This document shows positions 30,031 to 62,228 of a DNA stretch of 64,000 bases, piece after piece. Under the pieces are notes generated by a model. The model made no database searches and was not told the origin of the DNA. It saw only the letters and a list, made by a program, of their open reading frames with translations. This DNA comes from a virus, in the IMG/VR virus record IMGVR_UViG_3300019889_000009, positions 1-64,000 of that record, one strand, 5' to 3'. Made by a program: the position numbers and the translations under genes. Each line of letters begins with the position of its first letter. Position 1 is the first letter of the stretch.

Positions 30031-30747
30031 ATGTTCGGTAAGAACGAAATTACAAAACCATTCACGCATGAGGATGGCAGACTGCTGGTCAACGAGTTGT
30101 TCTACACAATACAGGGTGAGGGTCCCGACGCGGGTCGCCCTGCGATATTCCTGCGATTGTCGAAGTGCAACCTGCGGTGCTACTTTTGCGACACGCAGTT
30201 CGAAAAGGGAGAATGGATAACGGCACACTCGCTTATGGATCGGATTGGGCGCATGAGTGTGATCAATGGGTGCCCACTTGTCGTGATCACGGGGGGCGAA
30301 CCGCTCCTGCAAAACATCGTGCCATTGACCAGGTCATTGAACGAATGCGGGATATCAGTGTCGGTCGAGACTGCGGGCACCACGTACTACCCTGAACTTG
30401 TCGACGTGTTTTCGCCGGTGCGGGCGATCGCGGGTAACCTGATCGTGTGCAGTCCCAAGACTGGCAAAGTCAATTCTGATATTGAACCGCTGGTCGGAGC
30501 GTGGAAGTACATCATCAAGAGCGGGCATACGTCGGTGTTGGGGATACCCGACAAATCGACTCAATTGCCTGGTCAGGACGCTGCGATCTTCCTGCCGCGT
30601 GATCGCACGGTGCCGATATACGTGCAGGCGATGGATGAGTATGACGATGTGCTCAATGCAGGTAACCTGATCGAGGCCGCCGCCATCGCAATGAAGCATG
30701 GCTATCGGTTGTCGGTTCAGATACACAAGTTGGCGGACCTGCGCTGA
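30031..30747 (+). CDS. queE: 7-carboxy-7-deazaguanine synthase
   Basis: 238 residues. FYTIQGEGPDAG marks the substrate region and CNLRCYFC gives the radical-SAM cluster cysteines Cys46, Cys50 and Cys53 (CxxxCxxC). VVITGGEPLLQ and VSVETAGT follow as in the family. It converts 6-carboxy-tetrahydropterin to 7-carboxy-7-deazaguanine, step three of preQ0 synthesis. Other pathway members lie at 45-49 kb. It overlaps the helicase start by one base. Confidence 0.85.
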   Translation: MFGKNEITKPFTHEDGRLLVNELFYTIQGEGPDAGRPAIFLRLSKCNLRCYFCDTQFEKGEWITAHSLMDRIGRMSVINGCPLVVITGGEPLLQNIVPLTRSLNECGISVSVETAGTTYYPELVDVFSPVRAIAGNLIVCSPKTGKVNSDIEPLVGAWKYIIKSGHTSVLGIPDKSTQLPGQDAAIFLPRDRTVPIYVQAMDEYDDVLNAGNLIEAAAIAMKHGYRLSVQIHKLADLR

Positions 30748-34409: not shown

Positions 34410-34438
34410 TTGACAACTGTAGCAGGGGTTACTATTAT
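34410..34438 (+). promoter_or_regulatory. Near-consensus sigma70 promoter
   Basis: TTGACA at 34410-34415, exactly 17 bases, then TATTAT at 34433-34438. This is the best -35/-10 pair in the window. Transcription starting near 34445 would run through all twelve hammerhead copies. Host-type boxes suggest early expression by the host polymerase. Confidence 0.75.
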
Positions 34439-34669: not shown

Positions 34670-34808
34670 TACATCGATTTGGTTCCTGCGAGCGGCCGGA
34701 GCGTGGAGCTTGTGTAGACTCCCGACGAGGCGCGATCCATGTCATATGTTTTCTCCGAATAAAATTGCCCAAACCCATGTTGCGGGCTAGCGTGAATTGA
34801 CACGCAAC

Positions 34809-34891
34809 GTCGAAACCCCCTCACCGCGCTAACGTAATGCACCGAGGGGGTCAACGTCGATCGGCTATCGACGTTCTGATGATGACAAGCC
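34809..34891 (+). ncRNA. Type II hammerhead ribozyme, copy 1
   Basis: GUC-GAAA at 34809-34815; stem III ACCCCCU/AGGGGGU (34815-34821 with 34845-34851) with an unusually large 23-base loop; predicted cut after C34852; stem I of eight pairs (34853-34860 with 34868-34875); CUGAUGA at 34876-34882; stem II GAC 34884-34886 with GUC. Loop-I GGCU (34863-34866) can pair with AGCC (34888-34891). It lies 14 bases before the gene at 34906 and is the most divergent copy. Confidence 0.85.
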
Positions 34892-34905
34892 AAGGGAAAA
34901 CGATA

Positions 34906-35094
34906 ATGTTCCTTATTGAGGTGTTTGATAAAATGTCCGAGCTCGAATTAAATCGGCTTGAGAAGCACCCAACAGCCAACAGCGAAGCGCACAAAGTTGG
35001 TAAGCGACGATATGAAGTGATCACCAACGATCTTCAGGAGCTGATCACATTAGTACCATCGTTGTGCGAAGGCAAGAGAGTCGAAACGGCCTAA
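34906..35094 (+). CDS. Small early protein 1 of ribozyme operon
   Basis: 62 residues from the ATG at 34906. Helical, slightly acidic, with a Lys/Arg-rich middle (HKVGKRRYEV). Its last codons (Val-Glu-Thr-Ala) and stop at 35092 lie inside ribozyme copy 2, whose GUCGAAA core is thus translated. The predicted cut at 35102 leaves the reading frame whole. No family is recognised. Confidence 0.55.
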   Translation: MFLIEVFDKMSELELNRLEKHPTANSEAHKVGKRRYEVITNDLQELITLVPSLCEGKRVETA

Positions 35095-35140
35095 GGGCCG
35101 TCAACGTCGATTGGTCCCGACGTTCTGATGATGATAGACC
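35080..35140 (+). ncRNA. Type II hammerhead ribozyme, copy 2
   Basis: Core GUC-GAAA 35080-35086; stem III ACGGCC/GGCCGU (35086-35091 with 35096-35101) and TAAG loop; cut after C35102; stem I AACGUCG/CGACGUU (35103-35109 with 35118-35124), loop ATTGGTCC; CUGAUGA 35125-35131; stem II GAU 35133-35135 pairs with GUC through one G-U. Loop GGTC (35113-35116) pairs with GACC (35137-35140). Precedes the gene at 35161. Confidence 0.9.
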
Positions 35141-35160
35141 AAACACAATGGAGAATGACA

Positions 35161-35361
35161 ATGAGCGAATTGAATACGATTGCTGAACTGTTGAAACATC
35201 GGCACGCTCCCTTTAACGGGTTGACGATTGAAAACGTTTCGAAGTTAGGACGAGTTACTGTCGTGCACTACGTCGTCGAAACGAACGCGTTTACTCATTA
35301 CCGCGTTGCGATTGTGAACGGTGATCATGTTGAGTCCGACATGATTGCCGATCAAGAATAG
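35161..35361 (+). CDS. Small protein 2 of ribozyme operon
   Basis: 66 residues from the ATG at 35161 after TGGAGA; an earlier in-frame ATG at 35128 falls inside the ribozyme. Mixed alpha/beta (TVVHYVVETNAF). The stop TAG at 35359-35361 shares its last base with ribozyme copy 3. No family is recognised. Confidence 0.55.
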   Translation: MSELNTIAELLKHRHAPFNGLTIENVSKLGRVTVVHYVVETNAFTHYRVAIVNGDHVESDMIADQE

Positions 35362-35423
35362 TCGAAACTCCCTAACAAGGGAGTCTTGAACGATTGGTCC
35401 CGTTCAACTGATGATGACAGACC
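35361..35423 (+). ncRNA. Type II hammerhead ribozyme, copy 3
   Basis: Stem III ACUCCCU/AGGGAGU (35367-35373 with 35378-35384), loop AACA; cut after C35385; stem I UUGAACG/CGUUCAA (35386-35392 with 35401-35407), loop ATTGGTCC; CUGAUGA 35408-35414; stem II GAC 35416-35418 with GUC 35361-35363; pseudoknot GGTC 35396-35399 with GACC 35420-35423. Identical over its full length to copy 7. Confidence 0.92.
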
Positions 35424-35437
35424 GAGGAGTTACGAAC

Positions 35438-35563
35438 ATGCAGTTTGAAATATGGATGGTGCCTGCGGCAGTCTGTTTGCTTGCTATAGGCTATTACTTT
35501 TGGATGTTGAAAACGCGCATTGAAAAAGTGCGGTACGATCGCATCATGAACATTGGGCGATAA
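35438..35563 (+). CDS. Micro membrane protein
   Basis: 41 residues, ATG at 35438 after GAGGAG. One hydrophobic segment at about 5-23 (WMVPAAVCLLAIGYYFWML) then a basic tail. It lies alone between ribozyme copies 3 and 4, which supports it being a genuine gene. No function is assigned. Confidence 0.5.
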   Translation: MQFEIWMVPAAVCLLAIGYYFWMLKTRIEKVRYDRIMNIGR

Positions 35564-35624
35564 GTCGAAACGGGCGCGAGCCCGTCTGACGCGATTGGTC
35601 CCGCGTCACTGATGATGACAGACC
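35564..35624 (+). ncRNA. Type II hammerhead ribozyme, copy 4
   Basis: Stem III ACGGGC/GCCCGU (35570-35575 with 35580-35585) closed by a GCGA tetraloop; cut after C35586; stem I UGACGCG/CGCGUCA (35587-35593 with 35602-35608); CUGAUGA 35609-35615; stem II GAC 35617-35619 with GUC 35564-35566; pseudoknot GGTC with GACC 35621-35624. Its stem I differs from all others. Confidence 0.9.
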
Positions 35625-35640
35625 ACAATGGAGAATGAAC

Positions 35641-35946
35641 ATGACACCGATTGAACGATTTAAGATCCTTTTGGAGAAAGAGGCTAACAGCTCGAACTCG
35701 AAGGAGGCTAAGCGAGCTCGATTAGCTTTGAAAAGTCGTCAATTCAAGTCACTACGTCGATCGTTGCTTACACCATCTCGTTCTGATATCGGCAAACCCG
35801 TTCAATATGTCCCCGAACATCTCGAGGGTGTATTGGTCGACGTTTACGGCATCTTCGCAAAATTTAAATTCAAGCCCAAGGGGCGCGGTAAGAGCTTGTA
35901 CGCTGAAACCGACGTGCGCAACTTGAAGCTGATCAAATCGAAATAA
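35641..35946 (+). CDS. Small basic protein 3 of ribozyme operon
   Basis: 101 residues from the ATG at 35641 (seven bases after GGAG; the ATG at 35635 is too close). Lys/Arg/Ser-rich with a LEKEANSSNSKEAKRARLA helix and a beta-like middle. It resembles a small RNA- or DNA-binding protein but no family is recognised. Confidence 0.5.
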   Translation: MTPIERFKILLEKEANSSNSKEAKRARLALKSRQFKSLRRSLLTPSRSDIGKPVQYVPEHLEGVLVDVYGIFAKFKFKPKGRGKSLYAETDVRNLKLIKSK

Positions 35947-36009
35947 GTCGAAACTCCCTACCAAGGGAGTCTTGCATGATTGGTCCCATGCAACTGATGA
36001 TGACAGACC
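35947..36009 (+). ncRNA. Type II hammerhead ribozyme, copy 5
   Basis: Stem III ACUCCCU/AGGGAGU (35953-35959 with 35964-35970), loop ACCA; cut after C35971; stem I UUGCAUG/CAUGCAA (35972-35978 with 35987-35993); CUGAUGA 35994-36000; stem II GAC 36002-36004; pseudoknot GGTC 35982-35985 with GACC 36006-36009. Identical to copy 8. Confidence 0.92.
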
Positions 36010-36026
36010 GAACATGGAGAACTGAC

Positions 36027-36356
36027 ATGACAAAGATTTATCACACCCTACTCTCGCGTACGCCCGGTGAATTGTTCGCCATCGAGTTTGGCGATTTTGA
36101 CAAATCGGTCGTTTTGCAGGAGCACGTTTATTTGAAGGAGTCGGGTTCGACGCCTCCCAAAACAACGTTCAAGGTGATCTCGTCGAAGTCTGATCAGCCA
36201 TCGATCAAAGCGGCGGTTGAGTTCGAAAATGAAAAGATCAAAGCAAAAGTGCTGACTGAGGCGCTAGTCGCGTCGATCAAAAAGCACCACGGTGACGAAC
36301 GATCGCAACGTGCGCGCCATCAAGAAGCGATGGCACGTTTCCCGAAAGCGAAGTAA
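36027..36356 (+). CDS. Unknown protein 4 of ribozyme operon
   Basis: 109 residues, ATG at 36027 after GGAGA. Beta-rich N-terminus (FAIEFGDFDKSVVLQEH) and Lys-rich helical C-terminus. No family is recognised. The stop lies three bases before ribozyme copy 6. Confidence 0.55.
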   Translation: MTKIYHTLLSRTPGELFAIEFGDFDKSVVLQEHVYLKESGSTPPKTTFKVISSKSDQPSIKAAVEFENEKIKAKVLTEALVASIKKHHGDERSQRARHQEAMARFPKAK

Positions 36357-36358
36357 CT

Positions 36359-36419
36359 GTCGAAACCCCCTGCGGGGGGTCTGCCACAATTGGTCCCGTG
36401 GCACTGATGATGACAGACC
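36359..36419 (+). ncRNA. Type II hammerhead ribozyme, copy 6
   Basis: Stem III ACCCCC/GGGGGU (36365-36370 with 36375-36380) with a UGCG loop; cut after C36381; stem I UGCCAC/GUGGCA (36382-36387 with 36398-36403), ten-base loop; CUGAUGA 36404-36410; stem II GAC 36412-36414; pseudoknot GGTC 36392-36395 with GACC 36416-36419. Confidence 0.9.
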
Positions 36420-36433
36420 TTTAGGAGATTAAA

Positions 36434-36673
36434 ATGATGGAGTACTTGTTACTTGCTGTCATGAACGCACATCCTCGACAAGAGGTGGCGATTTTGCAGG
36501 CGACATTGATACCCACGACTGGGTGGCTGGTAATTTATGAGGCCGGCGACGAAGTGCGTTGTGGGTTCGTTATGGAGCAAAAGGCTAGTGTGGCGTTTGA
36601 ATGGTCGCACAAATTGCGAAGCATCACGCGTCGAGCTAACCGAACGTTCCGAAAACAAAAAGCCAAGTCTTAA
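36434..36673 (+). CDS. Unknown protein 5 of ribozyme operon
   Basis: 79 residues; a second ATG follows at 36437. N-terminal strands (WLVIYEAGDEVRCGFVM), basic C-terminal helix ending in RKQKAKS. No family is recognised. Ends four bases before ribozyme copy 7. Confidence 0.5.
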   Translation: MMEYLLLAVMNAHPRQEVAILQATLIPTTGWLVIYEAGDEVRCGFVMEQKASVAFEWSHKLRSITRRANRTFRKQKAKS

Positions 36674-36676
36674 ACG

Positions 36677-36739
36677 GTCGAAACTCCCTAACAAGGGAGT
36701 CTTGAACGATTGGTCCCGTTCAACTGATGATGACAGACC
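36677..36739 (+). ncRNA. Type II hammerhead ribozyme, copy 7
   Basis: Same sequence as copy 3. Stem III 36683-36689 with 36694-36700; cut after C36701; stem I 36702-36708 with 36717-36723; CUGAUGA 36724-36730; stem II GAC 36732-36734; pseudoknot GGTC with GACC 36736-36739, extendable to six pairs with the next AA. Confidence 0.92.
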
Positions 36740-36755
36740 AAAATGGAGAATGACA

Positions 36756-36959
36756 ATGATTGAGAACCACTATGAACTGAACCTCGCGCTTGATGGTAGG
36801 CATTATGCGCGGGTCAGTTTCAGCCCGTCACTGTCGAGGGAAGACGCAAAGGTGCGCAGTTGCGTTATTGCGGAGGCCCTGCAAGCCGGCAACACTCAGG
36901 GGCGTTGGTCGTTTGACTTGACGTTCGTTGAATGCGTCGGGCGGTCGGTGACGTTCTGA
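36756..36959 (+). CDS. Small unknown protein 6
   Basis: 67 residues from the ATG at 36756 after TGGAGA; longer in-frame readings upstream cross the ribozyme and the previous gene. Two beta strands and a helix are likely. Its stop overlaps the next start as TGATG. Confidence 0.5.
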   Translation: MIENHYELNLALDGRHYARVSFSPSLSREDAKVRSCVIAEALQAGNTQGRWSFDLTFVECVGRSVTF

Positions 36960-37330
36960 TGGCACGTAAGCGAGCTCTATCGACTGCGGAGTTGTCAGAC
37001 AGCTTCTCAAGCCCTGATGGCTTGATCAAGTACGAGGAGTGGGAGGAGCGAGTGTTCCGAGCCTCGATACGATACAGTACCAACGTCCCCCTAGGTCGGG
37101 GGCGTGTCGAGACGAAATGGTGGCCAACGTATCCTGAGGCCATGCTGATTGCGATGCACACTCCACGCGCGATATTGTATTGTTCGACACAAAGCGGTCG
37201 GTCAGTCTGCATCGCGCGCAAGGATTACGAAAAGTACTTGAAGCTCTACAATAAACTAACGAGGCAATCACTGCGAATGCCCCGTGACCCCCTCAAGCTG
37301 CGCGCGAAGCGTGAAAGGATACGATTGTGA
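36959..37330 (+). CDS. Unknown basic protein 7
   Basis: 123 residues from the ATG at 36959 in TGATG overlap. Basic, with a Trp pair in the middle (VETKWWPTYPEA) and a Lys/Arg-rich C-terminus. The third gene of this cassette starts inside its end as GTGA. No family is recognised. Confidence 0.5.
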   Translation: MARKRALSTAELSDSFSSPDGLIKYEEWEERVFRASIRYSTNVPLGRGRVETKWWPTYPEAMLIAMHTPRAILYCSTQSGRSVCIARKDYEKYLKLYNKLTRQSLRMPRDPLKLRAKRERIRL

Positions 37331-37527
37331 AATGGGAGGTGAGCACTCCTGATGACTTCAAGCCGATCTTCGGTGAAAGTCTCCATACTGTTTTTCGCGG
37401 CGTCCACGTTGTTATGACCTGGGACGACACATCTAATCAGTATGTCGTGCAAGAGTCAAAAACTCGTAAGGTAATCGCAGCTGCACGTCGCAAAGGCGAA
37501 TGTTATAAGCAGATGAGATCGAAGTAA
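37327..37527 (+). CDS. Small unknown protein 8
   Basis: 66 residues from a GTG overlapping the previous stop. Alternating strands (GVHVVMTWDDTSNQYVV) and a basic C-terminal helix. Ends just before ribozyme copy 8. Confidence 0.5.
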   Translation: MKWEVSTPDDFKPIFGESLHTVFRGVHVVMTWDDTSNQYVVQESKTRKVIAAARRKGECYKQMRSK

Positions 37528-37531
37528 AAAA

Positions 37532-37594
37532 GTCGAAACTCCCTACCAAGGGAGTCTTGCATGATTGGTCCCATGCAACTGATGATGACAGACC
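37532..37594 (+). ncRNA. Type II hammerhead ribozyme, copy 8
   Basis: Same sequence as copy 5. Stem III 37538-37544 with 37549-37555; cut after C37556; stem I 37557-37563 with 37572-37578; CUGAUGA 37579-37585; stem II GAC 37587-37589; pseudoknot GGTC with GACC 37591-37594. Confidence 0.92.
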
Positions 37595-37611
37595 ACGAAA
37601 GAGAAAACGAA

Positions 37612-38064
37612 ATGTCAAAAGCACCAAGAGCTGGTTCAAGCAAGGCCGCGGTCTATACCGTGTTCCATGCTGAGGGTCTAGCTGCTGCGATCAAGAAAGC
37701 AGTTGCGCTAGGTCTCAAAGAAAGCACAGCTAAATCATGGGCTGGAGGCTGGGCGCGGAGTCCGGAACAGGAAGTGACTCCTGTCAAGGTCAAGCGCGTC
37801 AAGCTCCCGAAAGCATCCCTTGATCAATTGGAGGACGACGGCACCGGACCCGCGTCAGTTGGCTATAAGGGTCAGTTGATCAGGAGGCGCATGCGCGTCG
37901 TCGAAGTCGGAGTCGGCAAAAACCGTGCCGGCCGCATCATGGAGTTGGGAGGTCAGGTATCCATTGTGAAATGGGAAACCGAAGCACTCCCGACGCCGCA
38001 GGCTATCAGCAATAAAAACCTCGCACCTTACGACACGTTCAAGACTGAAAGGGTACGGATATGA
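37612..38064 (+). CDS. Paralogue of the minus-strand basic protein
   Basis: 150 residues from the ATG at 37612. Its N-terminal 55 residues share RAGSSKAAVYTVFHAEGLAA-like text and the AAIKKAV helix followed by TAKSWAGGW with the protein encoded at 32254-32568 (minus). This is probably a small helix-turn-helix repeated in the genome. Beyond it the chain differs: a beta-domain-like MRVVEVGVGKNRAGRIMELG. It may be a regulator. Confidence 0.5.
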   Translation: MSKAPRAGSSKAAVYTVFHAEGLAAAIKKAVALGLKESTAKSWAGGWARSPEQEVTPVKVKRVKLPKASLDQLEDDGTGPASVGYKGQLIRRRMRVVEVGVGKNRAGRIMELGGQVSIVKWETEALPTPQAISNKNLAPYDTFKTERVRI

Positions 38065-38264
38065 CGGGTCTACACAAGAAGACAATCGCGTTTGACTGCA
38101 ACCTACGTCAACGTGCGTTGGAGATCGAGCGCATCGCATGTCGCGATTACCTCGATGATAACGCCGACGTCGCAGACATCGCACTCGATGAATTGCACAT
38201 TGACTCCGATCGATCGGATCAAGCCATTGCGCGGGTTTGTTCAATGCGCATTGCGTACCCATAG
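38061..38264 (+). CDS. Small acidic protein
   Basis: 67 residues in ATGA overlap with the gene before. Helical, with Asp-rich segments and two cysteines. No family is recognised; the last base of its stop is the first base of ribozyme copy 9. Confidence 0.45.
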   Translation: MTGLHKKTIAFDCNLRQRALEIERIACRDYLDDNADVADIALDELHIDSDRSDQAIARVCSMRIAYP

Positions 38265-38325
38265 TCGAAACGGCCCACGGGCCGTCTGCGAGGAGTGAGC
38301 ACCTCGCACTGATGATGACAGCTCA
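38264..38325 (+). ncRNA. Type II hammerhead ribozyme, copy 9
   Basis: Stem III ACGGCC/GGCCGU (38270-38275 with 38280-38285); cut after C38286; stem I UGCGAGG/CCUCGCA (38287-38293 with 38302-38308); CUGAUGA 38309-38315; stem II GAC 38317-38319. Here the loop reads TGAGC (38296-38300) and pairs with GCTCA (38321-38325): both partners have changed relative to GGTC/GACC, a compensatory change. Confidence 0.92.
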
Positions 38326-38343
38326 TAATGTTGGAGAACGACA

Positions 38344-38517
38344 ATGGCTAAAGCACCAGCGACCGACGCGATCAAGGTCGCAATGACGCACACCAAGGAC
38401 ACCAAGGGGACGTTCGTGTTTTCTAGCGATGATCCTGATGCTGCGGTGACGCAGTTATACGTTCGCCGTTCGGCAATGAAGACTCCGCGCGAAACGATCA
38501 CCTTGACGATTGAGTAG
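38344..38517 (+). CDS. Small phage protein, beta-rich
   Basis: 57 residues from the ATG at 38344. GTFVFSSDD, then AVTQLYVRRSAM and a TITLTIE end is a pattern found in a family of tiny phage proteins of unknown function. Possibly a single-domain anti-host factor. Confidence 0.5.
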   Translation: MAKAPATDAIKVAMTHTKDTKGTFVFSSDDPDAAVTQLYVRRSAMKTPRETITLTIE

Positions 38518-38526
38518 GAGGAGTGG

Positions 38527-38835
38527 TTGGCGAAGTATCGAGGCGACTATTACACCATTACGCTCGATGAGCGTGAGTTAGGTGGTGACATGACAACCCT
38601 TGCCGCATTTGATGATTGGCGTGAAGCGCAAGCGGCGTGGGAAGCGATGCCTGAACCTGAACAGGGTTGCATTTGGTTTGGTAAATGCAACCATATAGAC
38701 AAAAGCTACAGCGAAGCGATCTCGTGCAAGGGGCCAGACAAAGACCCGTTGTTTGAGCAATGGGTCCAGGCGATCGATGAGTTGATAGAAGAGGGCTCTA
38801 TTAAAGTGCGCGGTAAAAAAGCGACACGACACTAG
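38527..38835 (+). CDS. Unknown acidic protein, TTG start
   Basis: 102 residues from a TTG six bases after AGGAGG. Acidic, with Trp and Glu helices (DDWREAQAAWEAMPE) and two cysteines near the middle. No family is recognised. Confidence 0.45.
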   Translation: MAKYRGDYYTITLDERELGGDMTTLAAFDDWREAQAAWEAMPEPEQGCIWFGKCNHIDKSYSEAISCKGPDKDPLFEQWVQAIDELIEEGSIKVRGKKATRH

Positions 38836-38898
38836 TCGAAACTCCCCTACGGGGGAGTCTGCGAGGAGCGGCTCTCCTCGTACTGATGATGACAAGCC
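38835..38898 (+). ncRNA. Type II hammerhead ribozyme, copy 10
   Basis: Stem III ACUCCCC/GGGGAGU (38841-38847 with 38852-38858) capped by a UACG tetraloop; cut after C38859; stem I of eight or nine pairs (38860-38868 with 38874-38882); CUGAUGA 38883-38889; stem II GAC 38891-38893. Loop GGCT (38870-38873) pairs with AGCC (38895-38898). Confidence 0.88.
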
Positions 38899-38912
38899 AA
38901 CGGAGAACTACA

Positions 38913-39218
38913 ATGAAACGGTTACTGATTACAGCCGCATTGATCACACTCACGACCTCCGCGTTTGCGGACTCGTATGTGTCAACGTCGAACTGTGGGC
39001 ACTCGCGTGTCTACGGGTACAGTAAATGCAGCAACACAGTCACTTATGTTCCTGATCGCGACCGCAACCTCGAGCAAGAACGGCTCGACGCACTAGCGAT
39101 TGCAAAGGAGGACGCAAAGTGGGAAGCGTTTTGCAAGCCGTCGCGTTATGTCGACTCTTTCGGCATGACCAGGATGCATTTTGCACAAACTGGCTGTGAG
39201 TTTGGGAGGAGCGAATGA
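38913..39218 (+). CDS. Exported protein with signal peptide
   Basis: 101 residues from the ATG at 38913. A classical signal peptide: MKR, hydrophobic LLITAALITLTTS, and AFA before a probable cleavage site near residue 18-19. The mature part has four cysteines (SNCGHSR, SKCSNT, FCKPSR, TGCEFG) that may form disulfides in the periplasm. It could alter the host envelope or exclude other phages. Confidence 0.5.
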   Translation: MKRLLITAALITLTTSAFADSYVSTSNCGHSRVYGYSKCSNTVTYVPDRDRNLEQERLDALAIAKEDAKWEAFCKPSRYVDSFGMTRMHFAQTGCEFGRSE

Positions 39219-39397
39219 GATCGAAGTTGTCATGCCCCTGCGGGTCGGGCTTAGACTCGCAATGGCAGTTTGATGCGCGCGGTATCGAATTGTGCCGCAC
39301 GTGTCGCAAGTGTAATGACACCAAGATGTCGGGGTATCGTCGCGACGTGTTGACGAACTCCAATTATCAATGCGACGAACCAATTGAGGAGGATTAA
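39215..39397 (+). CDS. Zinc-ribbon-like small protein
   Basis: 60 residues in ATGA overlap. CPCGSG and CRTCRKC near residues 8-33 give a cysteine cluster suited to zinc. A small nucleic-acid or protein binder. The next start lies seven bases beyond its stop. Confidence 0.5.
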   Translation: MRSKLSCPCGSGLDSQWQFDARGIELCRTCRKCNDTKMSGYRRDVLTNSNYQCDEPIEED

Positions 39398-39403
39398 ATC
39401 ACA

Positions 39404-39574
39404 ATGGCACAGATCAGAGTCACCCTACGCGGGCAAGGCGGTGAGTTGGATTCCCGGGTCATCAATCCGTCTGAAGATGCATTTGAGGCGGAGGTTCGTC
39501 ACGCGGTGATGGATATTGTCCTCAATTGCGTGCTTGCCGCAGGCGATAGCATCACGATCGAAGAAATGGATTAA
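39404..39574 (+). CDS. Micro protein with acidic C-terminus
   Basis: 56 residues after GAGGAGG. Beta-helix-beta pattern (QIRVTLRGQGGELDSRV; a helix; SITIEEMD). Its stop lies two bases before ribozyme copy 11. No family is recognised. Confidence 0.5.
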   Translation: MAQIRVTLRGQGGELDSRVINPSEDAFEAEVRHAVMDIVLNCVLAAGDSITIEEMD

Positions 39575-39576
39575 AT

Positions 39577-39641
39577 GTCGAAACCCCCTATCAAGGGGGT
39601 CTGCCGCAATTGAGCACGCGGCACTGATGATGACGGCTCAA
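39577..39641 (+). ncRNA. Type II hammerhead ribozyme, copy 11
   Basis: Stem III ACCCCCU/AGGGGGU (39583-39589 with 39594-39600), loop ATCA; cut after C39601; stem I UGCCGC/GCGGCA (39602-39607 with 39618-39623); CUGAUGA 39624-39630; stem II GAC 39632-39634. Loop TTGAGC (39610-39615) pairs with GCTCAA (39636-39641), six pairs, again covarying with the common GGTC/GACC. Confidence 0.92.
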
Positions 39642-39655
39642 AGGAGAAAGAAACT

Positions 39656-40639
39656 ATGGCACATAAAGTAGAGAGTATGGCGTATGCGGGACAAGTTCCT
39701 TGGCATGGGCTCGGCGTCAACGTCGATCACAAGCAAACTCCCGCGCAAATGATGAAGGCGTCAAAGACCGATTGGAAGGTCTCGAAGCGCCAACTTCATT
39801 ACCCCGACACTGCAGGCAAGCTTATTCCTGCCGATGGGGAGTTCGCTATCGTTCGTGATACGGACGACAAACTTCTGACGACGGTCGGCGCCACATATAT
39901 GCCGGTCCAGAACGAGGAGATTTTTGATTTCTTCAAGAAGTTTACGACGGCCGGCAAAATGACAATGGAGACTGCGGGCTCCCTGTCGGACGGTCAATAC
40001 ATTTGGGCCCTTGCTCGTCTCGGCAAGGACTTCAAAGTCGGCAACGGCAAAGGAGGCGACGAGGTCAGACCGTATCTCCTGATCATGTCACCTCATGTTC
40101 ATGGCAAAGCCTTGATCATGCAGTACACACCCATTCGTGTGGTCTGCTGGAACACGTTGTCGATGGCTCTCGGTTCCGACCTCAAAGGAAAGAGGGGCGA
40201 GGGCTTCAAGATGGCACACTCACAGAAGTGGGATGCCAAGAGTGGTGAAGCGGAAATTGCATTGAACCTCGCGATGGTACAGACCGAGGAGTTCAAGGAT
40301 TGCGCGCAACACCTCGCGAAGAAGAAAGCGACCAAGGACACGGTTGACAAGTACTTCCTGTCGATCCTTACAAACCCTGGCAAAAAGATCGAAGGCACCG
40401 AGGAGTCCAAGAAGACTCCGACATTGCTTCCGAAGTTTCGTGCCGCGTTGGAGCGAGCTCCGGGTGCGACGATGCCATCTGCGCAAGGCACCTGGTGGGG
40501 TGCGTTGAATGCAGTCACCTATGTTATCGACCACGAAGTTGGCAAAGATCGCCAAACTGCGTTGCGAGGAGCATGGGTCGGCAATCACCAGAAGACGAAG
40601 CTGCGAGCGCTTCAGCTGGCGATTGAAGGAGCGAAGTAA
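39656..40639 (+). CDS. DUF932 (TIGR03299-like) protein
   Basis: 327 residues, usual length. The opening MAHKVESMAYAGQVPWHGLG, a WKVSKRQLHY stretch, YMPVQNEEIFDFF and the CWNTLSMAL motif are all signatures of the phage/plasmid family DUF932. Function is not established; such proteins are common in phage early regions. It is the largest gene of the ribozyme operon. Confidence 0.75.
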   Translation: MAHKVESMAYAGQVPWHGLGVNVDHKQTPAQMMKASKTDWKVSKRQLHYPDTAGKLIPADGEFAIVRDTDDKLLTTVGATYMPVQNEEIFDFFKKFTTAGKMTMETAGSLSDGQYIWALARLGKDFKVGNGKGGDEVRPYLLIMSPHVHGKALIMQYTPIRVVCWNTLSMALGSDLKGKRGEGFKMAHSQKWDAKSGEAEIALNLAMVQTEEFKDCAQHLAKKKATKDTVDKYFLSILTNPGKKIEGTEESKKTPTLLPKFRAALERAPGATMPSAQGTWWGALNAVTYVIDHEVGKDRQTALRGAWVGNHQKTKLRALQLAIEGAK

Positions 40640-40678
40640 ACTACACCTGATGATGTAAACAGTAACGGAGTAAAGAGA

Positions 40679-41095
40679 ATGCCTAAACCAATGACCATGA
40701 CAATCGAAGTCGAGGAGATCGCCTTCGGTCGCGTGTGGAGAACCCTTGATCAAATGCAGGGGGTGATAACGTTGAAGATGCACGGCACCGGGCCCAAGCC
40801 TAATAAGGGGTCCCCTGTAGCGCGTGCGTCGTCAAAGAAGGGGGACACGGTTACGTGCGTCGTCCTCAAGGCTCTGGCTCATGGTAAGCCGGAAAACAAA
40901 GCAGCATTGATTGATGCTGTGGTTGCTGCGGGTAAGGCGGCGACGTCATTTCCCGACTCGATCAGTAAACTGAAGAAAGCGAAGCACATTACCAACCCAT
41001 CGTCGGGGGTATTTAAGATCACCGTCGCGGGCGCTAAGTATCTCTCAACTGTCTGCAACGGTGCACCGAAACAGGAGTCCAAGTCCAATGGCTAA
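40679..41095 (+). CDS. Possible winged-helix protein
   Basis: 138 residues. The C-terminal 90 residues (ALAHGKPENKAALIDAVV, a short linker, then VFKITVAGAKYL) suggest a winged-helix-like fold. Slightly basic overall. It overlaps the next gene by eight bases. No named family is recognised. Confidence 0.45.
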   Translation: MPKPMTMTIEVEEIAFGRVWRTLDQMQGVITLKMHGTGPKPNKGSPVARASSKKGDTVTCVVLKALAHGKPENKAALIDAVVAAGKAATSFPDSISKLKKAKHITNPSSGVFKITVAGAKYLSTVCNGAPKQESKSNG

Positions 41096-41441
41096 ATCGT
41101 CATTCATTCGACCATATCACTATATCGATAAAAATCCTGTTATCGATAAAGTCCGAACGATGCTGCAAGATGTCGGTCTGATCAACAAGCTTGGTATCGT
41201 TGCAAACCTCTCGACAATGAACAAAGCAACATTCGAGGGGTGGTTTGACGGCGACGTGAAAGACCCACGTCACTCGTCAATCGCACGCGTGACGGAATCT
41301 GTCGGCTATGAACTGACGCTGCGCAAGCAGCGTACGATCAAGTTGGACGAGGAGTTGGCCGCCGCTAAGGAGTGGCGTGCGGAGCAACGCAAAAAGGCGA
41401 ACGGCAAAAAGAAGCCTGCTGCGAAGAAGAAAAAGAAATAA
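41088..41441 (+). CDS. Small helix-turn-helix protein
   Basis: 117 residues from the ATG at 41088. NLSTMNKATFEGWFDGD near residues 45-61, followed by SSIARVTESVGYEL, has the helix-turn-helix pattern of Xre-like regulators. The last 25 residues are almost all Lys and Ala, a DNA-binding tail. It may repress or activate phage promoters. It is followed directly by ribozyme copy 12. Confidence 0.5.
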   Translation: MAKSSFIRPYHYIDKNPVIDKVRTMLQDVGLINKLGIVANLSTMNKATFEGWFDGDVKDPRHSSIARVTESVGYELTLRKQRTIKLDEELAAAKEWRAEQRKKANGKKKPAAKKKKK

Positions 41442-41505
41442 GTCGAAACGGGCCTACGGGCCCGTCTGTCACGATTGATCACGTGGCACTGATGATGACA
41501 GATCA
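41442..41505 (+). ncRNA. Type II hammerhead ribozyme, copy 12
   Basis: Stem III ACGGGCC/GGCCCGU (41448-41454 with 41459-41465) with a UACG tetraloop; cut after C41466; stem I of seven pairs with one G-U (41467-41473 with 41482-41488); CUGAUGA 41489-41495; stem II GAC 41497-41499. Loop TTGATC (41475-41480) pairs with GATCAA from 41501: another covarying pseudoknot. Confidence 0.9.
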
Positions 41506-41517
41506 AGGAGAAGTAAC

Positions 41518-41781
41518 ATGACGACATTGAGTCATAAGAATTTGACCGCTCATAACTTTTTGACCGATCAAGGTGCTTGCGTCCATCTGCACCACGAAGC
41601 TGAGCACGGTGGTGACGCGGAGAACGGTCCCGGCAAGGTATTTCCGGCGTGGGACGAGTACGATAGCGAGTCGCATTTTATTGTGATCGATGATAGCGGC
41701 CTGATCGTGCACACTGAAATGATTGATTGGGATTTACTTGCTTGGCTTGAGGATCGAGAGTGGGAGGCTGATCATGGCTAA
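41518..41781 (+). CDS. Unknown acidic protein
   Basis: 87 residues after AAGGAGA. His- and Asp/Glu-rich (CVHLHHEAEHGGDAEN) with a WDLLAWLEDREWE end. It overlaps the next gene by eight bases. No family is recognised. Confidence 0.5.
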   Translation: MTTLSHKNLTAHNFLTDQGACVHLHHEAEHGGDAENGPGKVFPAWDEYDSESHFIVIDDSGLIVHTEMIDWDLLAWLEDREWEADHG

Positions 41782-43478: not shown

Positions 43479-43480
43479 TT
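43470..43480 (+). promoter_or_regulatory. GCAGTATGATT motif, site 5
   Basis: CCAGTATGATT, one base off the common form, containing the stop of the preceding gene. A start about six bases after TATGAT would give an eleven-base leader holding the GCAGGAG ribosome site of the primase gene. Confidence 0.5.
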
Positions 43481-45257: not shown

Positions 45258-45704
45258 ATGTATCACGTCACCAAACACTACCCACACTCACTTGGGTTGT
45301 CCGTTGCGTTTCGGCAGCCGGGGGCGACGTCGCATTGTAAGTACCTGCATGGGTACGCCCTCGCATTCACGTTCGAGTTCGAGGCCGAGGAGCTGGACGA
45401 AAACAATTGGGTCATTGACTTCGGCAGTCTCAAACGATTGAAGGAGTGGTTGGTCGAGACATTCGATCACAAAACCGTGGTCTCGAATGACGACCCGATG
45501 CTGCACACGTTTCAGGAACTCAACGGCACCTTGATCGATTTGCGCGTGCTGCCTGCGGTCGGTATGGAGGCTTTCGCCAAACTAGCATTTGGTGCCTGTT
45601 GTCATGTCATAATGACCACCGGCAATTTTCCTCGCGTTCGACTCACAAAGGTAACGGTCGCGGAGCATGAGGGCAACAGCGCCTCATACTCCGAACCCTT
45701 GTGA
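45258..45704 (+). CDS. queD: 6-carboxytetrahydropterin synthase
   Basis: 148 residues. HCKYLHGYALAF gives zinc-site His26 and His31 with the nearby Cys27; WVIDFGSLKRLKEWL and FDHKTVV follow, and TVAEHEGNSASY carries the usual catalytic Glu/His end. It makes 6-carboxy-tetrahydropterin from dihydroneopterin triphosphate, step two of preQ0 synthesis. The usual HGH zinc motif is HGY here, as in some other phage and proteobacterial QueD-like proteins. Confidence 0.75.
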   Translation: MYHVTKHYPHSLGLSVAFRQPGATSHCKYLHGYALAFTFEFEAEELDENNWVIDFGSLKRLKEWLVETFDHKTVVSNDDPMLHTFQELNGTLIDLRVLPAVGMEAFAKLAFGACCHVIMTTGNFPRVRLTKVTVAEHEGNSASYSEPL

Positions 45705-45740
45705 TCCTATAGACCACCCACCATCTCAAACGGAGTTAAC

Positions 45741-46574
45741 ATGCCACAGAGTGCAATCGAAACAGTACTATCGAAAGCTACCAAGATCAAGCAGGGCGCG
45801 AAGGAGGATCGACAAACGTTCCTGATCGCGCTTGGCAATGGTATTCAGGACCTCACTGATAAGCAGTGGGATGTCCTCGGCGAGGGTGACCTCGGCGACG
45901 AGTGCCAGAAGTGGGCGAACGAAGCAACGAAAGCGATCAAGGCGAAGAAGACCGTCAAGGATTTTTCGGATGTCGGCAAGGTCAAGCCGGATGCCGACGA
46001 AGACGGTGATGACGACAAACCGCCACGTCGCGGTCGCGGTCGTGACGCCGACGGAGAAGCTGATGACGATGACGACAAGCCGTCACGTCGCGGTGCTGCG
46101 AAAGAAGATGACGACGATGACAAACCTGCTCGTCGTGGTCGCCGCGACGCCGAAGAAGCCGATGACGACGACAAGCCGGCACGTCGTGGTCGCGCGGCGA
46201 AGGAAGAAGAAGCCGATGATGATGACAAACCAGCGCGTCGCGGTCGCGGTGCGAAGGATGATGATGACGACAAGCCCGCACGTCGCGGTCGTGCAGCGAA
46301 AGAAGACGATGACAAGCCGGCACGTCGCGGGGCGGCATCGAAGGAGAAGGAAAAGTCGTCGGGCATCAAGCAGTCGGGTACGGGAGTCAAGAACTCGATC
46401 AAGCTCGCGATCCTCGATGACCTTAAGATCTCCGTCGACGACCTGGTGAAGAAGTTGGGCAAGGGCGGCGCCTCCGTGTCAAAGGTCACGGTGTCGAACA
46501 TTCGCGCGGAGTTTCGTCACACGTTGAAACTCCTGCACGATGAAAAGGTCAACTGCGCGAAGTTGGAGATCTGA
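45741..46574 (+). CDS. Winged-helix-like protein with charged repeat
   Basis: 277 residues. Residues 1-75 are a helical domain with a TFLIALGNGIQDL helix. Residues about 85-200 are seven or eight repeats of a DDDDKPARRGR type, rich in Asp, Lys, Pro, Ala, Arg and Gly, and certainly disordered. The last 60 residues (SIKLAILDDLKISVDDL, then VSKVTVSNIRAEF) look like a winged-helix DNA-binding domain. The same repeat occurs in the SSB candidate at 54819. It is four bases from QueC. Confidence 0.6.
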   Translation: MPQSAIETVLSKATKIKQGAKEDRQTFLIALGNGIQDLTDKQWDVLGEGDLGDECQKWANEATKAIKAKKTVKDFSDVGKVKPDADEDGDDDKPPRRGRGRDADGEADDDDDKPSRRGAAKEDDDDDKPARRGRRDAEEADDDDKPARRGRAAKEEEADDDDKPARRGRGAKDDDDDKPARRGRAAKEDDDKPARRGAASKEKEKSSGIKQSGTGVKNSIKLAILDDLKISVDDLVKKLGKGGASVSKVTVSNIRAEFRHTLKLLHDEKVNCAKLEI

Positions 46575-46577
46575 CCC

Positions 46578-47303
46578 ATGCCCCTGCGAGCACTCGACAT
46601 TCAAGACTCACTGGTACTGTTCTCGGGAGGAATGGACAGCACCATCGCTCTATTCGATCGCCTGTCGCGTGCTCGCAGGGAAGGGGGTCAGGTTCACGCC
46701 CTGACCTTTTCCTACGGTCAGCGTCATTCGTCGGAAATAGGACACGCACGCCTGATCATGTCACGCGTCGCGACGTCGAGTCTGTACGGCCCGATTATGG
46801 GTCGGTTCATCACGCACAGAATTCATATGCCCGCATTCGGGTCACTCCTTGCCGGCGAACCCGTGATGAAGTATGAGAACGTCGAGCAGGCTGAACAAGC
46901 GGCCTTTGACAACTCATTCGTTCCGTATCGCAATATGATCTTCCTGACAGTTGCTGCGCAATACGCGTACAGCCTTGGAGTCAATATCATAGCGACGGGT
47001 TTGCGAGGGGGCTTCCCCGATTGTACCAGTGAGTGGGAAGCGCACATGGCTGACATGTTGCGGGAGTCCGTGCCGTCACATCCTATTCAGATGCGAACGG
47101 TGACCCATCAATCGCGTGCGGACTGTTTGACGTTCGCAATGGGCATCCCCGAATGTATCGATGCGCTCGCGATCAGCATGACGTGTTTCGAGGGGTCAAC
47201 TCCCCCCTGCGGGCATTGCCTCCCGTGCCTCAAACGTGCGCAAGGCTTCTCCTCGCTTGGGTTGTCAGATCCCCTTGAAACGCCCCGATACGGGCCTCGT
47301 TAG
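46578..47303 (+). CDS. queC: 7-cyano-7-deazaguanine synthase
   Basis: 241 residues. The PP-loop SGGMDS at 16-21 and YGQRHSSEI fit the adenylating fold. GHCLPCLKRAQG near the end with CFEGSTPPC gives the four-cysteine zinc site. It makes preQ0 from 7-carboxy-7-deazaguanine, step four. No amidotransferase extension is fused, unlike the archaeosine-making phage QueC. Repeat copy C begins at its stop. Confidence 0.85.
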   Translation: MPLRALDIQDSLVLFSGGMDSTIALFDRLSRARREGGQVHALTFSYGQRHSSEIGHARLIMSRVATSSLYGPIMGRFITHRIHMPAFGSLLAGEPVMKYENVEQAEQAAFDNSFVPYRNMIFLTVAAQYAYSLGVNIIATGLRGGFPDCTSEWEAHMADMLRESVPSHPIQMRTVTHQSRADCLTFAMGIPECIDALAISMTCFEGSTPPCGHCLPCLKRAQGFSSLGLSDPLETPRYGPR

Positions 47304-47395
47304 GGGGCGCCACAGAGCGGTTTTAGGGGTCCCCCGCATATGGGGCCCCCGAATGCCCCCAAAACGTCCCCAGCACGCCCCCTGCGACGACGAAA
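47303..47395 (+). repeat. Structured junction repeat, copy C
   Basis: Between queC and folE. GGGGGCG and CGCCCCC pair; the inner TTTT/AAAA also pairs. It holds the common ACAGAGCGG and AGCACGCCCCCTGCGACGA blocks. Its centre codes in frame as an N-terminal extension of the folE reading frame, but the real start is later. Confidence 0.7.
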
Positions 47396-47405
47396 GGCCC
47401 CCCAA

Positions 47406-48005
47406 ATGACGATAAAGCCCCCCCGAACGTCCCCCCATGACGCGATCGTTAAACAGTTGTTAAAACTGATCGTACCGGACCCCGAACGCGAGGGGCTGGC
47501 CGACACCCCATTTCGCGTCCTGCAAGCGTGGCAGGAGTGGACCGAAGGCTATCACGTCGACACCGATGCACTCTTGAAAACATTCGAGGATGGTGCAGAG
47601 AGTTACGACGAGATGGTTTTTGTTGGAGCGATCCCGTTCTACTCGACGTGCGAGCACCACATGGCTCCGTTCTTCGGTCTTGCGCATGTCGCGTACATGC
47701 CGGGCAATGGTCGTATCGTCGGACTGTCGAAGATACCCAGGTTAGTTGACGCATTCGCACGACGCCTCACTGTGCAGGAGCGTATCACGACGCAAATTGC
47801 TGACACGATGAATACAGTATTGAGACCAAGAGGAGTCGCAGTGCTCATGCAGGCGCGCCATATGTGCGTCGAGAGTCGTGGTGTAGCGAAGCCGGGTACT
47901 ATCACGACTACAAGTGCGGTCCGGGGTTTGTTCAAAACTGACGCGGCCGTGCGATCGGAGTTTCACAGTCTAGTCGCTTTGCAGAAAGGTATGGGCAATG
48001 GTTAA
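47406..48005 (+). CDS. folE: GTP cyclohydrolase I
   Basis: 199 residues from the ATG at 47406 (after GAAAGG); a longer frame would run back into the repeat. CEHHMAPFFG at about 82-91 supplies the zinc Cys and His; VGLSKIPRLVDAFARRL and MCVESRG are conserved active-site segments. It opens GTP to dihydroneopterin triphosphate, step one of preQ0 synthesis. It overlaps dpdA by eight bases. Confidence 0.85.
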   Translation: MTIKPPRTSPHDAIVKQLLKLIVPDPEREGLADTPFRVLQAWQEWTEGYHVDTDALLKTFEDGAESYDEMVFVGAIPFYSTCEHHMAPFFGLAHVAYMPGNGRIVGLSKIPRLVDAFARRLTVQERITTQIADTMNTVLRPRGVAVLMQARHMCVESRGVAKPGTITTTSAVRGLFKTDAAVRSEFHSLVALQKGMGNG

Positions 48006-49152
48006 GCGTATTAGATTGGTTGACGACGTTTCCCCGAATAAGGTCAATCTATTTTTAGACTCTGGTGTGTTTGGCGCTTGGAACAGGGGCGAGACTCTCG
48101 ACATTCAAGAGTACTGTGACTTCATCAAACGCAATGAGCAGTACCTGACATGCTACGCGGGCATGGATGTGATCCCCGGGAAGTTCGGGCAACGTCGCAC
48201 GATGGAGGAGGTCGAGGACTCCGCAGAGCAATCAGCGAAGAACCAGACCTATATGCGCAAGCAGGGTCTGACGCCCATTCCGATCTTCCACCAAGGTGAG
48301 TCGTTCAAGTGGCTTGAGAAAATGATGGCCGACGAAGAACCTTATGTCGGCATCTCGACGGCTAAGGACTTGACCCATCGTGAGCATCGAGTGTGGCTTG
48401 ATCAGGTCTTTACCATGATCACGGATGCGTCGGGTGTGCCGTTCATCAAGACTCACGGGTTTGGGATCACAACGATCTCGCTACTCCTGCGATACCCGTG
48501 GTGGACTAGTGACAGCACGACGTGGTCGCTTGCTGCGGGTTTCGGTCTGATCTACGTTCCGGGAATGCGAGGGAGCAAACCAGATTACACTCAGTTGCCT
48601 GTGCGAGTGATCATGTCAGGGCGTACGCAGATGGCGTGGTCGTCAGCGAAGCGTCAATATGAAAATCTTTCGATCATTGAAAAGGACCACGTAAACAGTT
48701 ACCTCGAGTATCTGGGTCTGTCGATCGAGCAGGTGCGTTATCAATCGTCTGCACGTCGCGCGGCGTGCTTGCGGTACTTCATTGACTTCCACGAACAATT
48801 GAAACTCAAACCGTTTCAGCATCGTCTGGGTGACAGTATCGGTCGCAAAGCGTCAAAGAAAAAAGCACCCGAGTTGTGGGATCATATGACCATCGTGTTC
48901 GCGACCATGATGTCCAATGGTCAATTTTCGCGCATCATGAACGCGGCCAATGCGAGCAATCGATTGGTCTCGTATTATGAACTGATCGGTAAGCCGGAAC
49001 AGCCCCTGCACAATTATGTGCGCGATGGCATCACCGATATTGACTACGAACGTCGCAAGCCCGCCCCGATATGGAACGACACTTACACGTCGTCCCGTAG
49101 AATGTCCCTCCTAGAACGATTGAAAGGATACCCCCTCGATGGCCAAGGATGA
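47998..49152 (+). CDS. dpdA: DpdA-like DNA-guanine transglycosylase
   Basis: 384 residues. FLDSGVFGAW and AGMDVIPG hold catalytic-type Asp residues; IPIFHQGES and HGFGITTISLLLRYPWWTSDSTTW complete the tRNA-guanine-transglycosylase-like barrel as in phage DpdA. It exchanges guanine in DNA for preQ0. It is encoded right after FolE, overlapping it by eight bases, and next to the sliding clamp and polymerase, with QueC and QueD just upstream, so the modification seems coupled to replication. Confidence 0.75.
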   Translation: MVKRIRLVDDVSPNKVNLFLDSGVFGAWNRGETLDIQEYCDFIKRNEQYLTCYAGMDVIPGKFGQRRTMEEVEDSAEQSAKNQTYMRKQGLTPIPIFHQGESFKWLEKMMADEEPYVGISTAKDLTHREHRVWLDQVFTMITDASGVPFIKTHGFGITTISLLLRYPWWTSDSTTWSLAAGFGLIYVPGMRGSKPDYTQLPVRVIMSGRTQMAWSSAKRQYENLSIIEKDHVNSYLEYLGLSIEQVRYQSSARRAACLRYFIDFHEQLKLKPFQHRLGDSIGRKASKKKAPELWDHMTIVFATMMSNGQFSRIMNAANASNRLVSYYELIGKPEQPLHNYVRDGITDIDYERRKPAPIWNDTYTSSRRMSLLERLKGYPLDGQG

Positions 49153-57315: not shown

Positions 57316-57934
57316 GCGCGAAGTTTGCAAAGCTTTGTCACTGTGGGTCTCGCACAATAAACGCGAGGATTTGTTCTGGCGGTCGGCGATGTCTGGGGGT
57401 CGTGCGACTGTCGGCCGACGTGCAGGCAAAGATCTTGCGCATCATGCGGGTGACATCTCCGCAACCCATCGGCTTGGACACGCGCTTACTGATCAGTTCT
57501 ACGTCGAGTGTAAACGATACGCCGACCTGAAGATCGAGTCAGGAGTGTTGCGAGGAGTTGGTAAGCTCGCAGCGTTTTGGAAAGAGACTTGCAAGCAGGC
57601 CACCATTCACAAGAAGCTTCCGATGCTGATCGCGCGGCAGGACCAATCAAGCACCCTTTTGATCATCCCCCTTGCGTCAATTATCAACCCTTATGGCACC
57701 CCGATGTACGCCCACAAGACGGTGGTGCTGCGATCGTGGGTAATGCGCGCGGACTTCTTCGAGTTCGATGCAGTGATGAAGCTTCCGTTCCCCGACGTCA
57801 ACTCCGTCAATGAACCGTTCCTGAAAGCGGGGGAGCTTGCGCGCATCCTCGGCTATGAGGTTGCAAAAGTCAGTACTCGATCACGTGAACGCATTCGGCT
57901 TGAACCAATCAAACGCAAGAGGATAAGACTATGA
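57275..57934 (+). CDS. Putative PD-(D/E)XK nuclease
   Basis: 219 residues. GSAYEREVCKALSLWV, an HAGDIS segment and FYVECKRYADLKIE give the acidic-Asp-ExK arrangement of PD-(D/E)XK nucleases such as Holliday-junction resolvases. The basic end (RKRIRL) fits DNA binding. Placed between RecA and SbcCD-like genes, it is probably a recombination nuclease. Coupled by ATGA to the phosphatase. Confidence 0.55.
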   Translation: MRKGGGKAKGSAYEREVCKALSLWVSHNKREDLFWRSAMSGGRATVGRRAGKDLAHHAGDISATHRLGHALTDQFYVECKRYADLKIESGVLRGVGKLAAFWKETCKQATIHKKLPMLIARQDQSSTLLIIPLASIINPYGTPMYAHKTVVLRSWVMRADFFEFDAVMKLPFPDVNSVNEPFLKAGELARILGYEVAKVSTRSRERIRLEPIKRKRIRL

Positions 57935-62137: not shown

Positions 62138-62228
62138 GAGCGTCACAGAGCGGTGCGACGCGATCAGGGGGGTATCGGCCCATGCAAACGCGTAAAATCG
62201 CCCCAGCGCGCTCCGATCGCACGGCAAA
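62137..62228 (+). repeat. Structured junction repeat, copy D
   Basis: GGAGCG pairs with CGCTCC; ACAGAGCGGT and AGCGCGCTCC blocks are shared with the other copies. It lies between the SbcC-like and NusG-like genes; the probable NusG-like start codon at 62182 is inside it. Confidence 0.65.

Follow-up and report, generated by a model that had tools for sequence, protein, structure and literature searches.

Type II hammerhead ribozymes have stems I and III closed by loops and stem II open, around a core consisting of CUGANGA, GAAA, an A15.1–U16.1 pair and H at position 17; they cleave to leave 5'-OH and 2',3'-cyclic phosphate ends, and a pseudoknot between loop I and the 3' tail is common, though not universal, among them. 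Our subject here is an array of twelve such ribozymes among the small genes of an uncultured phage, found in a 64,000-nucleotide stretch (the window) that represents positions 1 to 64,000 of the 71,798-bp IMG/VR virus record IMGVR_UViG_3300019889_000009. The closest described systems are the clustered phage hammerheads of Perreault 2011 (PMC3088659), in which individual genes, or blocks of a few genes, are flanked by several prophage hammerheads, some of them type II with a loop I–tail pseudoknot. Three tandem arrangements were seen there to cleave in vitro, one triple arrangement was active in E. coli, and it was already proposed that phage transcripts are processed in this way into gene-length mRNAs. 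The same source reports that in the halophages HF1/HF2 a hammerhead precedes a helicase gene, with a mapped 5' end no more than 3 nucleotides (nt) from the cut. A 2023 paper (PMC10085705) states that bacterial self-cleaving ribozymes are enriched close to each other and in the vicinity of Mu-like phage genes, and calls the biological reason unknown.

The window array, with its ribozymes at unit boundaries in a tailed-phage record, resembles the 2011 clusters in that several hammerheads flank genes or gene blocks in phage DNA, and the HF1/HF2 case in having hammerheads just 5' of start codons in an early phage operon; as in the 2023 paper, ribozymes cluster with other ribozymes in a phage-related region. 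It differs in that twelve copies are distributed along one operon, whereas the largest cluster in the part of PMC3088659 considered here is the triple arrangement and a single ribozyme is reported there for HF1/HF2; and PMC10085705 does not describe ribozymes arrayed in order at the unit boundaries of an operon. An earlier note on this DNA had held that type II hammerheads are known singly in bacteria and phages, which the 2011 clusters contradict, and that a dozen in one operon had not been described. No description of arrays this large was found in the open-licence PMC papers searched, but the claim of novelty was too strong, since both clusters and the processing idea date from 2011. What is new here, relative to those clusters, is the scale, a fixed placement rule, the conservation of junctions across orthologues, and a 5' leader ribozyme that is unlike the others. 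We think it probable, from sequence and comparative evidence, that these are genuine type II hammerheads acting as the self-cutting punctuation of a phage operon, giving short independent messages.

How good is the evidence that the elements are hammerheads? All twelve motifs proposed in the earlier note are present, with the cut C at the position given for each in the list below. From 5' to 3', they comprise (A)GUC-GAAAC, a stem III hairpin, GUC, the cut, a stem I hairpin, CUGAUGA, an extra U, GAC and a tail. This is the order of Rfam RF02276, in which stem II is open and GAAA is followed by stem III, the cut, stem I and CUGAUGA, except for the extra U that every window copy carries after CUGAUGA. 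The note had suggested a search with the Rfam Hammerhead_II covariance model (gathering score 37 bits), by which 10 of the 12 copies score above the cut-off (40.1–52.9 bits). Copy 1 (cut 34852) reaches 33.4 bits, and copy 3 (cut 35385) is absent from every Rfam search listing; its hammerhead is identical to that of copy 7 (cut 36701), which scores 44.1 bits. Because Rfam alone underscores phage copies, we used a motif descriptor with letter-shuffled controls, together with a covariance model built from the 12 window copies and applied to the window, the record and other records; Rfam alone was rejected as a copy counter, as its model misses or underscores many of them. The 12-copy model gives 69–93 bits for all twelve (90.7 bits for copy 3), the next best window match having 15.7 bits (E = 0.023), and over the whole record it finds exactly these twelve at E ≤ 0.01. 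When the letters of four complete records and of nine pieces of records were shuffled, the descriptor matched 0 to 0.2 times in each.

The type II assignment is further backed by covariation and by the fit of loop I to the tail. CUGAUGA, GAAA, A15.1–U16.1 and C17 are intact in 12/12 copies, without a single core substitution, so that the earlier statement that all core bases are kept is correct for the bases themselves, but takes no account of the U inserted after CUGAUGA in every copy. The three helices, with stem II open, have 97.6–100% of their stem pairs paired in the 12 copies, with two-sided changes in stems I and III. Over the alignment, 98.4% of proposed-pair cells are paired, against 76.6% on shuffling and 30–45% when the partners are slid by 1–3 columns, and cells changed on both sides number 48 against 14 in shuffled alignments, such changes being found in stem I, stem III and the pseudoknot alike. 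Stem III hairpins have predicted energies of −9.6 to −16.7 kcal/mol, and stem I hairpins of −6.5 to −12.5 kcal/mol. (The idea that stem III is an intrinsic terminator was rejected: none of the terminator-like sites on the + strand falls at a ribozyme.) All twelve copies have at least four contiguous Watson–Crick pairs between loop I and tail (GGUC–GACC in most, UGAGC–GCUCA in copies 9 and 11, UUGAUC–GAUCAA in copy 12), and the pairing of loop I with the tail of the same copy (mean 4.9 pairs) exceeds that with swapped tails (3.7 pairs; 0/1000 shuffles as good). The same is true of 162 long-stem-I copies (4.9 versus 3.1 pairs; 0/1000 shuffles), whereas 66 short-stem-I copies give no such signal and represent a second architecture, without the pseudoknot. 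Two of the array-bearing records that were compared (labelled G000–G026, G000 being the window phage), namely G001 (L056) and G004 (L038), have both architectures in one array: a 22–25-nt stem I with pseudoknot, and a 17-nt stem I with a 4-bp stem II and no pseudoknot. Stem II varies among the G001 copies (GUC/GAC, GCC/GGC, GACC/GGUC), and because of this we see no selection for the exchange of ribozyme halves, and rejected interchangeable halves as a designed feature.

Could the copies be no more than decayed repeats without present activity? The extra U would fit such a view, as would the first copy of G001, which has CCGATGA for CTGATGA, but with GAAA, CUGAUGA, A15.1–U16.1 and C17 intact in every window copy, and with pairing held under sequence change, we consider decay extremely improbable.

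The array lies in a + strand block of small genes that extends from a DNA helicase gene (ending at 34283) to a DNA primase gene (starting at 43479). Its features, including each open reading frame (ORF), are as follows.

34410–34438 (+): sigma-70-like promoter sequence TTGACA-17-TATTAT, head of array operon
34806–34901 (+): hammerhead 1, leader copy with extended stem III, cut after 34852; below cut-off with Rfam, found by 12-copy model
34906–35094 (+): unit 1, ORF of 62 aa that stops within the stem III loop of copy 2
35077–35150 (+): hammerhead 2, cut after 35102; Rfam and 12-copy model
35161–35361 (+): unit 2, ORF of 66 aa; a ribozyme also precedes the G002 orthologue
35358–35433 (+): hammerhead 3, cut after 35385, identical to copy 7; 12-copy model
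35438–35563 (+): unit 3, ORF of 41 aa
35561–35634 (+): hammerhead 4, cut after 35586; Rfam and 12-copy model
35641–35946 (+): unit 4, ORF of 101 aa
35944–36019 (+): hammerhead 5, cut after 35971, identical to copy 8; Rfam and 12-copy model
36027–36356 (+): unit 5, ORF of 109 aa
36356–36429 (+): hammerhead 6, cut after 36381; Rfam and 12-copy model
36434–36673 (+): unit 6, ORF of 79 aa
36674–36749 (+): hammerhead 7, cut after 36701; Rfam and 12-copy model
36756–37527 (+): unit 7, three overlapping ORFs (36756–36959, 36959–37330, 37327–37527), no internal ribozyme
37529–37604 (+): hammerhead 8, cut after 37556; Rfam and 12-copy model
37612–38264 (+): unit 8, two overlapping ORFs (37612–38064, 38061–38264)
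38261–38334 (+): hammerhead 9, cut after 38286; Rfam and 12-copy model
38344–38835 (+): unit 9, two ORFs (38344–38517; the other ends at 38835)
38832–38908 (+): hammerhead 10, cut after 38859; Rfam and 12-copy model
38913–39574 (+): unit 10, three ORFs (38913–39218, 39215–39397, 39404–39574)
39574–39649 (+): hammerhead 11, cut after 39601, 5' of the DUF932 gene; Rfam and 12-copy model, same junction in G002, G021 and G026
39656–41441 (+): unit 11, DUF932 protein (39656–40639) and ORFs 40679–41095 and 41088–41441
41439–41514 (+): hammerhead 12, cut after 41466; Rfam and 12-copy model, same junction in G026
41518–41781 (+): first gene after the last ribozyme, 87 aa

The placement of the ribozymes is non-random. 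For the 11 internal copies, the upstream stop codon ends between 15 nt inside and 4 nt before the ribozyme, and the cut is 51–58 nt from the next start codon; even at cut 35102, where the upstream stop is inside the ribozyme (in the stem III loop), it is still 5' of the cut. The geometry claimed earlier, with each cut after a stop codon and before the next ribosome site so as to divide the mRNA, is supported, except that copy 1 is in the leader and does not lie between two convincing genes, and that the resulting pieces would not all be single genes, as five of the units contain two or three genes and six contain one. In many records the pattern recurs: in 187 of 206 flanked copies, an ORF with 40 codons or more ends within the −30 to +80 nt examined, and 72% of those upstream stops fall within −3 to +5 nt of the ribozyme (a span of 9 out of the 111 positions, or some 8%); likewise, 187 of the 206 are followed by a ribosome site and ORF, with a median cut-to-start distance of 53 nt. 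Gaps at the 11 window junctions that have a ribozyme between genes are 66–84 nt, whereas at the eight junctions without one they are −8, −4, −4, −4, −1, 6, 39 and 72 nt (five being overlaps, and the 72-nt gap falling to 9 nt if a TTG start at 38527 is used). The ribozymes thus lie where translation units are separate, and there are none between overlapping genes.

It is likely, from promoter and gene order, that a single transcript runs through the array. The sequence at 34410–34438 is the only 11/12 sigma-70-like match in the record, and at the equivalent place between helicase gene and first ribozyme, G002 and G021 have TTGACC-16-TATAAT, about 260 and 220 nt, respectively, before the ribozyme. 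A NusG-like protein (a transcription antiterminator by PHROG profile) is encoded at 62182–62763, and might support long phage transcripts. Punctuation by ribozymes would then operate as follows. In one transcript from the promoter near 34410, each ribozyme would cut in cis after its GUC triplet, as expected from established hammerhead biochemistry. The stem III hairpin would form the end of the upstream unit, which would carry a 2',3'-cyclic phosphate some 25 nt past the stop codon, and the downstream unit would begin with a 5'-OH placed directly on the stem I hairpin, 51–58 nt before its start codon. The operon would give six messages with one gene and five with two or three, all having uniform hairpin-sealed ends, that might benefit from independent stability and expression and from protection against end-dependent RNases. 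We propose that such separate, hairpin-sealed messages would therefore each be translated and decay independently; of the conceivable benefits, this independence, obtained from a single promoter, seems the most likely.

Ends of this kind are substrates of RNA repair enzymes, and one might imagine that they are healed and sealed, to give circular or re-joined mRNAs. The phage does encode a stand-alone PNKP-type (polynucleotide kinase-phosphatase) HAD phosphatase domain (57931–58560) that could act on hammerhead 3' ends. However, this domain was found in only five of the 15 records with arrays, and neither G002 nor G003 is among them; the apparent 'RNA ligase' profile match proved to be an Acb1-like domain on the portal protein; and Perreault 2011 (PMC3088659) sought circular or spliced products without finding any. 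We accordingly rejected an RNA end-repair partner for the array on the first two of these grounds, and regard sealing as very improbable. The Acb1-like domain (anti-CBASS, 2H phosphoesterase) is C-terminal in the portal protein (L131:6886–9129; record positions 66886–69129), and its PHROG profile also matches long ORFs in the relatives G002 and G026.

The first ribozyme differs from those that follow. Among the 11 arrays with upstream sequence it is the longest copy in seven, because its stem III is extended (1.3 expected, P = 7e-5), and with one array taken per related group it is the longest in four of eight (P = 0.01), these P values being indicative only, as the pattern was noticed post hoc. 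First-copy stem II often has only two pairs. A distinct leader ribozyme with extended stem III is seen in the window (34806–34901) and in G001, G002, G021, G022, G024 and G025, and an RTAATG motif occurs within the stem III loop region of the first copy in G000, G002 and G021. In G002 and G021, a frame of 22 codons, for which inspection by eye showed no convincing ribosome site, passes through the leader ribozyme; its window counterpart runs into gene 1. Cleavage here would release the leader RNA and thereby give the first gene, too, a 5'-OH hairpin end.

These features bear on the idea that cutting is conditional, with ribosome occupancy, temperature, ions or a protein setting unit levels, and with the leader ribozyme as the main control point. 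The unusual length and often weak stem II of the first copy would suit such regulation, and stop codons adjoin or run into the 5' strand, where a terminating ribosome would cover stem II and GAAA. Set against this, the ordinary copies have full cores and stable hairpins with no additional conserved sensor domain, and a ligand or protein site was not identified. Regulation as the primary purpose of the array seems to us unlikely.

The earlier note had also suggested looking for the same array in related phages, and it is there: relatives have 5–10 copies in the same region. G002 is collinear with the window phage over most of the genome (typically with 35–65%, and up to 85%, amino-acid identity), and G001, G021, G026 and G004 also have proteins in common with it; in G001, G002 and G021 the array is 3' of the same helicase gene. 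Using the window-built model, we counted 12 copies in G000, 10 in G021, nine in G001, eight in G002, six in G004 and five in G026. In records for which protein matches to the window phage are few or undetectable, the counts are 13 in G003 (which is without detectable protein homology), nine in G023, eight in G022, seven each in G010 and G024, six in G025 and five in G009. Arrays of 5–13 copies are common in uncultured phages, and commoner than counted, as the array counts in viral contigs are lower bounds. Achromobacter phage JWX, an Erwinia phage segment, Edwardsiella phage ZHS and Aminobacter phage Erebus were not among the loci listed with at least two copies, which is not a firm negative, as the listing may omit them and does not resolve single copies. 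The sole annotated phage record with DNA similarity to the array region is MW202801.1 (L240, 8045–8105), where the similarity is confined to a ribozyme between two small genes, near an antirestriction gene; ribozymes beside ardA were noted in PMC3088659.

Where a gene that begins a window unit has an orthologue, a ribozyme precedes that orthologue in nine of ten comparisons (35161 in G002; 36027 in G002 and G021; 36434 in G021; 37612 in G026; 39656 in G002, G021 and G026; 41518 in G026; the exception is 38913 in G026), whereas for genes within units this is so in one of ten (40679 in G026); both are our own counts, and the comparisons are not independent. At orthologous junctions the stems have mostly been rewritten with pairing held, as before the DUF932 gene in G000, G026, G002 and G021.

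Array gene content and order vary among relatives, and this raises the alternative that the elements are joints at the DNA level: near-identical sequences between unrelated genes would promote recombination, genes would be shuffled or gained, and ribozymes would spread along with them. The identity of copies 3 and 7, and of copies 5 and 8, is in keeping with this, given that no array gene resembles another. So is CTGATGATG (40640–40660; 40647), following the DUF932 stop codon, which may be a remnant representing the 3' core of a lost ribozyme; the G026 orthologue of gene 40679 has a complete ribozyme 5' of it. Nevertheless, most copies differ in their stems and yet keep pairing, which recombination sites would not need, and compensatory changes at orthologous junctions require selection at the RNA level, so we judge it improbable that cassette joining accounts for the array. 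Duplication of flanking genes along with the identical ribozymes was rejected, there being no paralogues among the array proteins; because the identical copies have unrelated flanking genes, we conclude that copies also spread or become homogenised within the array.

Returning to the probable role of the ribozymes as self-cutting punctuation, several considerations weigh against it. Cleavage of these RNAs is a prediction from sequence and known biochemistry, and the single transcript is argued from a consensus promoter match and gene order. Ribosomes terminating on the 5' strand of the ribozymes might limit cutting. An extra unpaired U lies between A9 of CUGAUGA and stem II in all 12 copies; it seems to be tolerated, because the G003 and G010 arrays each mix copies with and without it (its frequency in the pooled set is inflated partly by the search pattern), and to our knowledge an insertion at this position is no recognised criterion for exclusion from the type II hammerheads.

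The record is that of a tailed phage, judging from its terminase, portal, head protease and tape measure genes, the first two of which are in the last 7.8 kb of the record, outside the window; the window also has genes for a replicative helicase, a family A DNA polymerase, RecA and an SbcC-type protein. A close named relative was looked for, and none found. The N-terminal domain of the polymerase (50220–52838) is of the uracil-DNA glycosylase superfamily. A set of 7-deazaguanine (queuosine-type) genes at 30031–30747 and 45258–49152 (QueE, QueD, QueC, GTP cyclohydrolase I and a TGT-like protein) suggests that the phage DNA may be modified. Matches to MIR2084 at 10583–10654 were rejected, as they are far under the family cut-off and involve both strands of one segment.

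Why phages and bacteria keep hammerheads has been a standing question since 2011. Long arrays with a fixed stop–ribozyme–start geometry, found also in phages without detectable protein homology, amount to many natural replicates, and this geometry makes the purpose testable, in that it predicts exact RNA ends, message sizes and the effect of inactivating single copies. A bolder proposal, to which we attach only a small likelihood, is that several unrelated phage lineages use whole-operon ribozyme arrays as a standard expression architecture, in which a specialised leader copy would be the control point, the following copies would release mono- to tricistronic hairpin-sealed messages, and cutting would be tuned by the terminating ribosome. 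If punctuation of the operon is confirmed, it would represent a protein-free conversion of one operon into many independent bacterial messages, with direct use in synthetic biology.

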